A stretch of 64,000 nt of DNA, taken from contig BRXU01000004.1 in NCBI GenBank assembly GCA_030267565.1, positions 4,160,501 through 4,224,500 of the forward strand, in the 5' to 3' direction. Under the pieces are notes generated by a model. The model was not told where the DNA came from. It made no database searches and saw only the letters and a list, made by a program, of their open reading frames with translations. Both the position numbers and the translations under genes were made by a program. This DNA is from Pleodorina starrii (taxonomy: Eukaryota; Chlorophyta; Chlorophyceae; Chlamydomonadales; Volvocaceae). Each line of letters opens with the position of its first letter. Within the stretch, counting starts at the first letter, position 1. Of this stretch, positions 25,020-44,353 are shown piece after piece.

Positions 25020-28000
25020 AGACCTACCTACCTGCCTGCCTGCCTGCCTGCCTACCTGCCTGCCTGCCTGGCTGCCTGGCTGCCTGGCGGCCTGGCTGCC
25101 TGCCTGGCTGCCTGCCTGCCTGCCTGGCTGGCTGCCTGGCTGGCTGCCTGCCTGCCTGGCTGGCTGCCTGGCTGGCTGTCTGGCTGCCTGGCTGCCTGGC
25201 TGCCTGCCTGCCTGGCTGTCTGCCTGCCTGCCTGCCTGGCTGCCTGGCTGGCTGCCTGGCTGGCTGCCTGGCTGGCTGCCTGGCTGCCTGCCTGCCTGGC
25301 TGCCTGGCTGCCTGGCTGGCTGCCTGCCTGGCTGGCTGCCTGCCTGGCTGGCTGCCTGGCTGGCTGCCTGGCTGCCTGGCTGGCTGCCTGGCTGCCTGGC
25401 TGGCTGCCTGGCTGCCTGGCGGCCTGGCTGCCTGGCGGCCTGGCTGCCTGCCTGGCTGCCTGCCTGCCTGGCTGCCTGGCTGCCTGGCTGGCTGCCTGGC
25501 TGCCTGGCTGGCTGCCTGGCTGGCTGCCTGGCTGCCTGGCTGGCTGCCTGGCTGCCTGGCTGCCTGGCTGCCTGGCTGCCTGGCTGGCTGCCTGGCTGCC
25601 TGCCTGCCTGGCTGGCTGCCTGGCTGCCTGGCTGCTTGCCTGCCTGCCTGGCTGCCTGCCTGGCTGCCTGGCTGGCTGCCTGGCTGGCTGCCTGGCTGGC
25701 TGCCTGGCTGCCTGGCTGGCTGCCTGGCTGCCTGGCTGCCTGGCTGGCTGCCTGGCTGCCTGGCTGCCTGCCTGGCTGCCTGCCTGGCTGGCTGCCTGCC
25801 TGGCTGCCTGGCTGCCTGGCTGCCTGGCTGGCTGCCTGGCTGCCTGGCTGGCTGCCTGGCTGCCTGCCTGCCTGGCTGCCTGGCTGCCGGCCTGCCTGGC
25901 TGCCTGCCTGGCTGGCTGCCTGGCTGCCTGCCTGGCTGCCTGCCTGGCTGCCTGGCTGGCTGCCTGGCTGCCTGGCTGGCTAGCTGCCTGCCTGGCTGCC
26001 TGCCTGCCTGCCTGCCTGGCTGCCTGGCTGGCTGCCTGCCTGCCTGCCTGGCTGGCTGCCTGGCTGGCTGCCTGGCTGCCTGGCTGCCTGCCTGCCTGGC
26101 TGCCTGGCTGGCTGCCTGGCTGGCTGCCTGGCTGCCTGCCTGCCTGCCTGCCTGCCTGCCTGGCTGGCTGCCTGGCTGGCTGCCTGGCTGCCTGGCTGGC
26201 TGCCTGGCTGGCTGCCTGGCTGGCTGCCTGGCTGCCTGGCTGCCTGCCTGGCTGGCTGCCTGGCTGGCTGCCTGCCTGCCTGCCTGGCTGCCTGGCTGGC
26301 TGCCTGGCTGCCTGGCTGCCTGCCTGCCTGGCTGGCTGCCTGGCTGGCTGGCTGCCTGGCTGGCTGGCTGCCTGGCTGGCTGCCTGGCTGCCTGCCTGCC
26401 TGGCTGGCTGCCTGGCTGGCTGCCTGGCTGGCTGCCTGGCTGCCTGCCTGGCTGCCTGCCTGCCTGCCTGGCTGGCTGCCTGGCTGCCTGCCTGGCTGCC
26501 TGCCTGGCTGCCTGGCTGGCTATCTGGCTGCCTGGCTGCCTGCCTGCCTGCCTGCCTGGCTGTCTGCCTGCCTGCCTGCCTGGCTGCCTGGCTGGCTGCC
26601 TGGCTGGCTGCCTGGCTGCCTGCCTGCCTGGCTGCCTGGCTGCCTCGCTGGCTGCCTGCCTGGCTGGCTGGCTGCCTGGCTGGCTGCCTGGCTGGCTGCC
26701 TGGCTGCCTGCCTGCCTGCCTGGCTGCCTGGCTGGCTGCCTGGCTGCCTGGCGGCCTGGCTGCCTGGCGGCCTGGCTGCCTGCCTGCCTGGCTGGCTGCC
26801 TGGCTGCCTGGCTGGCTGCCTGCCTGGCTGGCTGCCTGCCTGGCTGCCTGGCTGCCTGGCTGCCTGGCTGGCTGCCTGGCTGCCTGGCTGCCTGGCTGCC
26901 TGCCTGGCTGCCTGCCTGGCTGGCTGGCTGCCTGGCTGCCTGGCTGCCTGGCTGCCTGGCTGCCTGGCTGGCTGCCTGGCTGCCTGGCTGGCTGCCTGGC
27001 TGCCTGCCTGCCTGGCTGCCTGGCTGCCGGCCTGCCTGGCTGCCTGCCTGGCTGGCTGCCTGGCTGCCTGCCTGGCTGCCTGCCTGGCTGCCTGGCTGGC
27101 TGCCTGGCTGCCTGGCTGGCTAGCTGCCTGCCTGGCTGCCTGCCTGCCTGCCTGCCTGGCTGCCTGGCTGGCTGCCTGCCTGCCTGCCTGGCTGGCTGCC
27201 TGGCTGGCTGCCTGGCTGCCTGGCTGCCTGCCTGCCTGGCTGCCTGGCTGGCTGCCTGGCTGGCTGGCTGGCTGCCTGCCTGCCTGCCTGCCTGCCTGCC
27301 TGCCTGCCTGGCTGCCTGGCTGCCTGGCTGGCTGCCTGGCTGGCTGCCTGGCTGGCTGCCTGGCTGCCTGGCTGCCTGCCTGGCTGGCTGCCTGGCTGGC
27401 TGCCTGCCTGCCTGCCTGGCTGCCTGGCTGGCTGCCTGGCTGCCTGGCTGGCTGCCTGGCTGCCTGGCTGCCTGCCTGCCTGGCTGGCTGCCTGGCTGGC
27501 TGGCTGCCTGGCTGGCTGGCTGCCTGGCTGGCTGCCTGGCTGCCTGCCTGCCTGGCTGGCTGCCTGGCTGGCTGCCTGGCTGGCTGCCTGGCTGCCTGCC
27601 TGGCTGCCTGCCTGCCTGCCTGGCTGGCTGCCTGGCTGCCTGCCTGGCTGCCTGCCTGGCTGCCTGGCTGGCTATCTGGCTGCCTGGCTGCCTGCCTGCC
27701 TGCCTGCCTGGCTGTCTGCCTGCCTGCCTGCCTGGCTGCCTGGCTGGCTGCCTGGCTGGCTGCCTGGCTGCCTGCCTGCCTGGCTGCCTGGCTGCCTCGC
27801 TGGCTGCCTGCCTGGCTGGCTGGCTGCCTGGCTGGCTGCCTGGCTGGCTGCCTGGCTGCCTGCCTGCCTGCCTGGCTGCCTGGCTGGCTGCCTGGCTGCC
27901 TGGCGGCCTGGCTGCCTGGCGGCCTGGCTGCCTGCCTGCCTGGCTGGCTGCCTGGCTGCCTGGCTGGCTGCCTGCCTGGCTGGCTGCCTGCCTGGCTGCC

Positions 28001-42200: not shown

Positions 42201-44353
42201 GGCTGCCTGGCTGCCTGGCTGCCTGGCTGCCTGCCTGGCTGGCTGCCTGGCTGCCTGCCTGGCTGCCTGGCTGCCTGCCTGCCTGGCTGGCTGCCTGGCT
42301 GGCTGCCTGCCTGGCTAGCTGCCTGGCTGGCTGCCTGGCTGGCTGCCTGGCTGGCTGCCTGGCTGCCTGCCTGCCTGGTTGCCTGGCTGCCTGGCTGGCT
42401 GCCTGCCTGGCTGGCTGCCTGCCTGCCTGGCTGCCTGGCTGGCTGCCTGGCTGGCTGCCTGGCTGCCTGGCTGCCTGGCTGCCTGGCTGCCTGGCTGGCT
42501 GCCTGCCTGGCTGGCTGCCTGCCTGGCTGCCTGGCTGCCTGGCTGCCTGGCTGCCTGGCTGCCTGGCTGGCTGCCTGCCTGGCTGGCTGCCTGCCTGGCT
42601 GGCTGCCTGGCTGGCTGCCTGGCTGCCTGCCTGCCTGCCTGGCTGCCTGGCTGGCTGCCTGGCTGCCTGGCTGGCTGCCTGGCTGCCTGGCTGCCTGGCT
42701 GCCTGCCTGGCTGGCTGCCTGGCTGGCTGCCTGGCTGCCTGGCTGGCTGCCTGGCTGGCTGCCTGGCTGCCTGCCTGCCTGGCTGCCTGGCTGCCTGGCT
42801 GCCTGCCTGCCTGGCTGGCTGCCTGGCTGCCTGGCTGCCTGGCTGCCTGGCTGCCTGGCTGCCTGGCTGCCTGCCTGGCTGCCTGCCTGGCTGCCTGGCT
42901 GGCTGCCTGGCTGGCTGCCTGGCTGCCTGCCTGCCTGGCTGCCTGGCTGGCTGCCTGGCTGCCTGCCTGCCTGGCTGCCTGCCTGGCTGCCTGCCTGGCT
43001 GGCTGCCTGGCTGGCTGCCTGGCTGGCTGCCTGGCTGCCTGGCTGCCTGGCTGCCTGCCTGGCTGCCTGCCTGGCTGGCTGCCTGCCTGGCTGCCTGGCA
43101 ACCTGGCTGCCTGGCTGGCTGCCTGGCTGCCTGGCTGGCTGCCTGGCTGCCTGCCTGCCTGGCTGCCTGGCTGCCTGGCTGCCTGCCTGCCTGGCTGGCT
43201 GCCTGGCTGCCTGGCTGCCTGGCTGCCTGGCTGCCTGCCTGGCTGCCTGCCTGGCTGCCTGGCTGGCTGCCTGGCTGGCTGCCTGGCTGCCGGCCTGCCT
43301 GGCTGCCTGCCTGGCTGGCTGCCTGGCTGCCTGCCTGGCTGCCTGCCTGCCTGCCTGGCTGCCTGCCTGGCTGCCTGGCTGCCTGGCTGGCTGCCTGGCT
43401 GCCTGGCTGGCTGCCTGGCTGCCTGGCTGCCTGGCTGGCTAGCTGCCTGCCTGGCTGCCTGCCTCCCTGCCTGGCTGGCTGCCTGGCTGGCTGCCTGCCT
43501 GCCTGGCTGGCTGCCTGGCTGGCTGCCTGGCTGCCTGCCTGCCTGCCTGCCTGGCTGCCTGGCTGGCTGCCTGGCTGGCTGCCTGGCTGCCTGCCTGCCT
43601 GCCTGCCTGCCTGCCTGGCGGGCTGCCTGGCTGGCTGCCTGGCTGCCTGCCTGCCTGCCTGCCTGCCTGCCTGGCGGGCTGCCTGGCTGGCTGCCTGGCT
43701 GCCTTGCTGGCTGCCTTGCTGGCTGCCTGGCTGGCTGCCTGGCTGCCTGGCTGCCTGCCTGCCTGCCTGGCTGGCTGCCTGGCTGGCTGCCTGCCTGCCT
43801 GCCTGGCTGGCTGCCTGGCTGGCTGCCTGGCTGCCTGGCTGCCTGGCTGCCTGGCTGGCTGCCTGGCTGGCTGGCTGCCTGGCTGGCTGCCTGGCTGCCT
43901 GGCTGCCTGCCTGCCTGGCTGGCTGCCTGGCTGGCTGCCTGGCTGGCTGCCTGGCTGCCTGCCTGCCTGGCTGCCTGGCTGGCTGCCTGGCTGCCTGGCT
44001 GCCTCGCTGCCTGGCTGCCTGGCTGCCTGGCTGCCTGGCTGCCTGGCTGGCTGCCTGGCTGCCTGCCTGGCTGCCTGGCTGCCTGGCTGCCTGCCTGGCT
44101 GCCTGCCTGCCTGCCTGCCTGCCTGGCTGCCTGGCTGGCTGCCTGCCTGGCTGGCTGCCTGCCTGGCTGCCTGGCTGGCTGCCTGGCTGCCTGGCTGCCT
44201 GCCTGGCTGCCTGGCTGCCTGCCTGGCTGCCTGCCTGCCTGCCTGGCTGGCTGCCTGGCTGGCTGCCTGCCTGGCTAGCTGCCTGCCTGGCTGCCTGGCT
44301 GCCTGGCTGCCTGCCTGGCTGCCTGCCTGGCTGCCTGGCTGCCTGGCTGGCTG
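39226..44353. repeat. Right arm with higher-order repeat of about 2.06-2.34 kb
   Basis: Clean tetramer register returns at about 39226. The block 41037-41260, carrying GGCAACC and a CCGG, equals 43097-43320 (offset 2060). A CCTCCC marker shortly after 41341 recurs after 43441 (offset 2100). A GGTTGCC marker recurs at 40038 and 42378 (offset 2340). CCTTGCTGG doublets repeat at about 41598 and 43701. Confidence 0.85.

Follow-up and report, generated by a model that had tools for sequence, protein, structure and literature searches.

How does a four-base repeat come to occupy more than 19 kb at a single locus of a colonial green alga, and how much of that length is real? The locus lies on contig C4 of Pleodorina starrii, within a stretch of 64,000 nucleotides (C4:4160501-4224500) that is called the window below. 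The sequence is part of the assembly published for NIES-4479, a bisexual strain, with 136.1 Mbp in 95 contigs (PMC10256686), and genome searches covered all 95 contigs (136,057,477 bp). An original prediction, made from the letters of the window, had proposed a 19.3-kb array of CTGC and CTGG tetramers between two ordinary genes and read it as an unusually large natural expansion of the CCTG class. Our analysis makes it probable that a CCTG/GCTG microsatellite has expanded naturally at this single intergenic site, and that its centre is the same array seen through a failing consensus.

To delimit the array, we used Tandem Repeats Finder (TRF), which reported a period-4 repeat at 25,023-44,353 with 5,011 copies, 82% matches, 5% indels and a score of 20,362. 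The array runs in a single orientation, has sharp edges and takes up 30.2% of the window, in line with the predicted extent of 25,020-44,353. Spacings from one CTG to the next were exactly 4 bp in 4,007 of 4,953 cases (3 bp in 802, 5 bp in 90, other values in 54), which excludes a chance origin. Both the TRF result and these spacings describe head-to-tail units of 1-6 bp continuing over many kilobases, as in a microsatellite array. The two next-longest simple repeats that TRF listed in the window measured 437 bp (48,577-49,013) and 417 bp (16,000-16,416), so the expectation that other microsatellites here mostly stay below 450 bp was borne out. Of 501 genome occurrences of the 16-mer CTGCCTGGCTGCCTGG, 296 fell inside the window.

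Unit by unit, the array falls into two clean outer blocks, zones A and D, and an irregular middle, zones B and C, all read on the plus strand. Zone A (25,023 to about 30,350) holds 684 CTGC and 614 CTGG units, mostly in register; only 8 of its 1,307 units showed off-register spacings, 7 of these within 28,500-29,100 and none among the 849 units of 25,023-28,500. Zone D (39,420-44,353), with 632 CTGC and 574 CTGG units, had none in 1,208. Both zones carry block duplications. In zone A the 611 bp at 26,280-26,890 (plus strand) recur with 100% identity at 27,432-28,042, a lag of 1,152 bp, and in zone D a block of 395 bp recurs with 99.75% identity at a lag of 2,060 bp. Each zone has four lags with a block of at least 240 bp (blocks 251-611 bp, lags 580-2,396 bp), and higher-order blocks at larger lags are present in both, at several lags with no single fixed period; none is found in zone C as assembled. 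The longest exact run of repeated units was 148 in zone A and 90 in zone D, compared with at most 30 in Markov surrogates, and rare variant units made up 57 of 2,502 in the two zones together. Zones A and D share identical stretches of 189 bp and 155 bp, and on account of these the two zones look like parts, the two ends, of one array.

The edges of the array point to where it came from. The segment abutting it on the left (24,647-25,021, plus strand) recurs on contigs C7 and C1, each copy being 97.9% identical to it over 375 bp, and the segment on the right (44,354-44,391, plus strand) recurs at the same two loci with 92% identity over 38 bp. A whole-genome DNA search with the left flank placed the left segment at three places in all. 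Alignments showed that the tract between the edge segments at C7 and C1 is only about 15 units long, and the array edges coincide with the edges of this short CCTG tract. The flanks had been taken to be single-copy, which does not hold for these 375 and 38 bp. Since the edges match a segment that carries a tract of about 15 units at two other places, local expansion is the simplest reading. Insertion of a foreign satellite array, in place of growth of a local tract, would also leave edges as sharp as those seen, but would not be expected to put them exactly where the short tract ends at C7 and C1, and we regard it as highly improbable.

The C7 and C1 copies were identical across the 837 and 1,003 bp compared, and the two places may be one large duplication. 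Independently of this, the available part of the genome paper describes, for contigs 1 and 7 of the bisexual strain, a cluster of genes that is duplicated (PMC10256686). Repeated elements flank the C7 copy on both sides. Next to the short paralogue on C7 lies a sequence of about 380 bp (C7:2562999-2563380) that has at least 38 further places in the genome, often paired about 6.8 kb apart, and because of this pairing the repeated element on the left appears to be a long terminal repeat, the end of a retrotransposon.

The middle of the array looks different. Zone B forms the transition (about 30,350-31,750); it consists of near-pure CTGC with indels strewn through it, and 39 of its 348 units are out of register. 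Zone C, from about 31,750 to 39,420, is a mixture of CTG, CTGC, CTGG and CTGCG in which 849 of 2,091 units are off register; the CTGC/CTGG makeup in the original prediction thus applies to the outer blocks and fails here. Zone C contains no A in its 7.7 kb, and none of its duplicated blocks reaches 240 bp, the longest being 50 bp. Its longest exact unit run was 18, near the Markov surrogates (means 14-17, largest 21), and rare variant units numbered 1 in 2,047, against about 47 expected from zones A and D. Text typical of zone C occurred 74 times in the genome, 56 of them in this window, 7 on C44 and 11 elsewhere.

Comparison with zone D suggests the nature of zone C. A local alignment of units matched its tail (37,556-39,137, plus strand) to zone D at 42,503-44,215 as a degraded copy, spanning 413 units with 28 unit gaps. 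One base was lost in 46 of 213 C units and in 97 of 191 G units, and among the 404 informative pairs there was a single C/G swap, a count biased low by a scoring that penalises such swaps. Two further stretches of zone C matched zone D, with scores of 35.2 and 34.2, and 2 of 6 chunks of 300 units exceeded the best of 90 surrogate chunks. When lost bases were allowed, the self-resemblance of zone C reached 40.1, compared with 21.2-27.9 in 8 surrogates. A base-loss model, its rates chosen by the author, was applied to the unit strings of zones A and D and diverged from the unit triplets of zone C by 0.122, versus 0.252 for random order. These results indicate that zone C would be a low-fidelity consensus of one and the same array.

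Could zone C instead be a genuine, distinct biological subarray of CTG, CTGC, CTGG and CTGCG units? CTG and CTGCG units do occur near the start of C44 as well, and for most of its left part zone C has no match in either A or D. Growth by whole units, however, would not be expected to leave 143 single-base losses beside one C/G swap in the 404 pairs, and a distinct subarray would have to account for 7.7 kb that lack long block duplications, lack A and have nearly lost their variant units. We judge this alternative very unlikely.

Two sources of error were tried and dropped. Nanopore repeat-calling errors, as presented in the accessible text of one report (PMC9414165), were set aside for the mixed middle, the source reads being PacBio Sequel II (PMC10256686). 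A consensus vote between repeat copies in the wrong register, under which bases should be lost at points of disagreement between copies, found no support across 859 lags (mean z 0.28, highest 3.3) or in the C/G swaps (1 of 404), although the erased variant units of zone C would fit such a vote.

A wrong join is a more serious rival. Here the array is real and its length inflated, the noisy middle and zone D being in part the same DNA placed twice during merging or gap filling. The assembly was built with flye and NextDenovo, merged with quickmerge, gap-filled by TGS-GapCloser and treated with pilon; gcpp and Illumina reads served for polishing (PMC10256686). A pipeline that merged two assemblies and filled gaps could produce such a join, and from 36,662 on, the best match of 7 of 14 zone C windows to A or D was offset by 4.9-5.05 kb, approximately the length of zone D; the degraded copy also stops near the point that corresponds to the right edge of the array. 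That matching end is partly forced, since an alignment cannot pass the end of D. Moreover, zone C at 34,769-35,319 matches D at 42,587-43,199 at another offset, as a repeated block would, and the part at 34.4-36.5 kb does not match the beginning of D when shifted by 5.0 kb. We regard a wrong join as possible but doubtful.

The reading of zone C as a failing consensus of one array has its own difficulties. Only 3 of 48 windows of 100 units in zones B and C beat all 160 surrogates, all of them in the tail; earlier windows mostly stayed around surrogate level, and the left part of zone C has no clear match. Scores per window were 23-37 for the tail and 35-51 for a simulated degraded copy of D, with loss rates taken from the tail alignment itself. 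That alignment needs its 28 unit gaps, and its score of 87.8 lies below the 119-155 of simulated lossy copies with 5% unit indels, so the tail is either noisier than modelled or a diverged copy. Variant units common to the tail and D were 0 of 9, although D's own copies retain 8 of 9 (A's copies just 3 of 12). The available part of the Results of the genome paper calls the reads 'high-fidelity', which makes such errors less expected (PMC10256686). A mixture of CTG and CTGCG stands only about 0.5 kb from the unique flank on C44, so distance from an anchor is not the whole cause of the noise, and the near-pure 8.8-kb array on C45 is clean though anchored on one side only. The use of gcpp, unlike the wording of the Results, presumably points to continuous long reads for this assembly. 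Array length and join are known from the assembly, and the change may have run the other way, by contraction of the tract at C7/C1.

Because the central 7.7 kb look like a degraded consensus, the true array length is insecure, and nearly 8 kb of published sequence at the array is unfit for letter-by-letter reading. We infer a real length of at least about 10 kb. A large natural expansion of the CCTG class in an alga is thus upheld by the volvocine host and the paralogous tract of about 15 units, whereas the figure of 19.3 kb is not secured. In the same assembly, four contigs have lengths in round thousands (C16, 2,755,000; C22, 2,135,000; C24, 2,010,000; C46, 679,000), perhaps from assembly trimming.

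How might the proposed local expansion have proceeded? Replication slippage would first have lengthened the tract of about 15 units, and unequal exchange or break-induced/break-repair block copying would then have carried it to kilobases, a step suggested by the block duplications in zones A and D. GCC/GGC hairpins on single strands of the mixed array would favour growth. Folded as single strands, four array pieces gave z values of -4.2 to -5.9 against dinucleotide shuffles, and in calculated folding the mixed units did better than pure CTGC or pure CTGG. A test of 37 windows gave no sign of selection on unit order for hairpins (mean z -0.24 to -0.43); that unit order yields no folding gain beyond composition weighs against the hairpin step. 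For yeast CCTG repeats, the available part of one study puts forward hairpins and the repair of breaks as the route to large contractions (PMC10849350). Most likely the array is tolerated, expanding DNA, and we propose no host function for it. The original prediction had added that the site might perhaps be heterochromatic or fragile. With 104 CG dinucleotides in 19,331 bp, dense CpG methylation of the array is impossible; every CTG in it is, as a matter of sequence, a symmetric CHG site.

The array lies between two genes on the minus strand, upstream of the start codon of the left one and downstream of the stop codon of the inferred right one. The first exon of the left neighbour, PLESTB_000482100 (23,070-23,950, minus strand, left boundary approximate), matched a predicted Pleodorina starrii protein with 100% identity over 82% of the query; the gene is directed away from the array, its ATG about 1.07 kb from the array edge. 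On the right, a coding-like frame at 45,748-46,035 (minus strand) is the probable last exon, whose stop codon would lie about 1.4 kb beyond the edge of the array. Of the two ordinary genes predicted, the left corresponds to a predicted protein, and the right is deduced from exon-like frames and a stop read by eye; no homologue of the right gene was found, though no proper homologue search was made. Sequence searches of the PDB with the frame of the left gene, with the right exon and with one peptide from C44 gave no match, Pfam at an E value of 0.01 returned nothing in 20 long frames, and in the window ARAGORN found no tRNA and Rfam nothing at gathering scores. Long open frames cross the array on both strands, as the repeat unit has no stop codons. 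Just right of the array, 44,632-44,713 is a tetramer-phase mosaic (TTGG, TCAG, TCCG and similar), which looks as if other four-base repeats had grown there and then decayed.

A second array of the same unit and strand lies at the break between two contigs. C45 ends in 8.8 kb of near-pure CCTG (C45:697767-706536), and C44 opens inside a CCTG-type array of about 5.6 kb (C44:1-5600) on the same strand as on C45. Unlike the mixed array of the window, the C45 array is near-pure CCTG and broken by the assembly. The C45 end and the C44 start probably flank one array that the assembly has broken. Read by eye, the C45 flank looks like an exon followed by the beginning of an intron, and the C44 flank like the last part of an intron followed by an exon; a single gene across C45 and C44 is doubtful, since by the same reading the edge exons differ in splice phase. 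The two contigs have 493 36-mers with a variant unit in common, but these consist almost wholly of repeat sequence, so this is no proof of overlap. Near its unique flank, the C44 array changes sharply to CTGGG/CTGG units.

We sampled 32 contig starts (C1-C26, C42-C44, C46, C90 and C95, with C44 picked for its array). Non-telomeric tandem arrays stood at 11 of them (C4, C6, C7, C10, C12, C15, C18, C20, C22, C43 and C44), and telomere repeats at 2 more. Units in these starting arrays include ACCGGGC, GCCCATCG, GAGAA, AGGCCCCCGG and GCCTGCGGGG. An assembly that breaks in tandem arrays this often might be thought to have made the window array outright, with no long repeat at the site, but the clean blocks are about 5 kb each, are joined each to its own flank and carry their own block duplications; we give that explanation almost no credence. 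A 33-place array-end pattern had 211 genome occurrences, including those in the window, C44 and C45; beyond C12, large arrays were sought only by a narrower pattern (100 places). On C42 (1398-2371), two telomere-type arrays stand face to face, TTTTAGGG then CCCTAAAA with a short gap between, perhaps a fused telomere or a chimeric read, and C3:2447316-2454086 holds three tandem copies of a unit of about 3.37 kb, each copy with a short CTGC tract.

The closest known counterpart is the CCTG repeat in intron 1 of CNBP in myotonic dystrophy type 2 (DM2), which, in the accessible part of one report, ranges from 75 to more than 11,000 units, with blot lengths of 20-40 kb in 9 patients (PMC9462847). 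The Pleodorina array is of the same unit class, and its length, as assembled, falls within the DM2 size range. The same part of the report gives GCTG among the interrupting motifs of healthy CNBP alleles, and long CCTG runs in expanded alleles, with TCTG blocks in 7 of 9 patients (PMC9462847). GCTG is likewise the second unit of the Pleodorina array; unlike in DM2, it makes up nearly half of the clean units (684:614 and 632:574), which also carry block duplications, and the clean zones do not consist of long CCTG runs. The DM2 repeat arose within an AluSx insertion, an older duplicated sequence, according to the available text of another paper (PMC3378579), and the Pleodorina tract too sits within a duplicated segment, though the C7/C1 segment is low-copy (3 places) unlike the Alu family. 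Compared with what these sources give, the DM2 tract is intronic, while the Pleodorina array is, given the inferred right-hand gene, probably intergenic and is not known to be unstable.

Another natural very long microsatellite is known from maize, where, in the portion of the report at hand, super-long (TAG)n arrays contain consecutive TAG repeats up to 235 kb, defeat assembly, carry transposon insertions in 4 of 5 gap arrays and are supported by fluorescence in situ hybridization (PMC10335936). Set against those arrays, the one in Pleodorina is tetrameric rather than trinucleotide, far shorter and known from the assembly. Clusters of ZeppL elements are known at centromeres, with none reported in two volvocine species, as far as the available part of that paper goes (PMC8226300). 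We found no paper on this Pleodorina array, few of our literature searches having been aimed at it.

The Pleodorina array is to be placed as another case of the known long-microsatellite expansions and as a good natural comparison for expansion of the DM2 type. More tentatively, and with odds a little short of even, Pleodorina starrii may tolerate runaway growth of simple repeats across its genome, with two CCTG arrays on the DM2 scale and arrays of other 4-10 bp units at contig ends. If so, one CCTG array would be intergenic and the other, at the C45/C44 break, apparently next to an intron or within one, and the short paralogous copies of the tract would allow expansion to be compared within a single healthy haploid organism. 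If the length of the window array holds, a free-living haploid alga would carry, next to a gene, a CCTG-class array that matches in size many of those causing DM2, together with a close relative of 15 units at another place in the genome, and repeat growth, block duplication and interruption would become testable in culture and across three sequenced strains.

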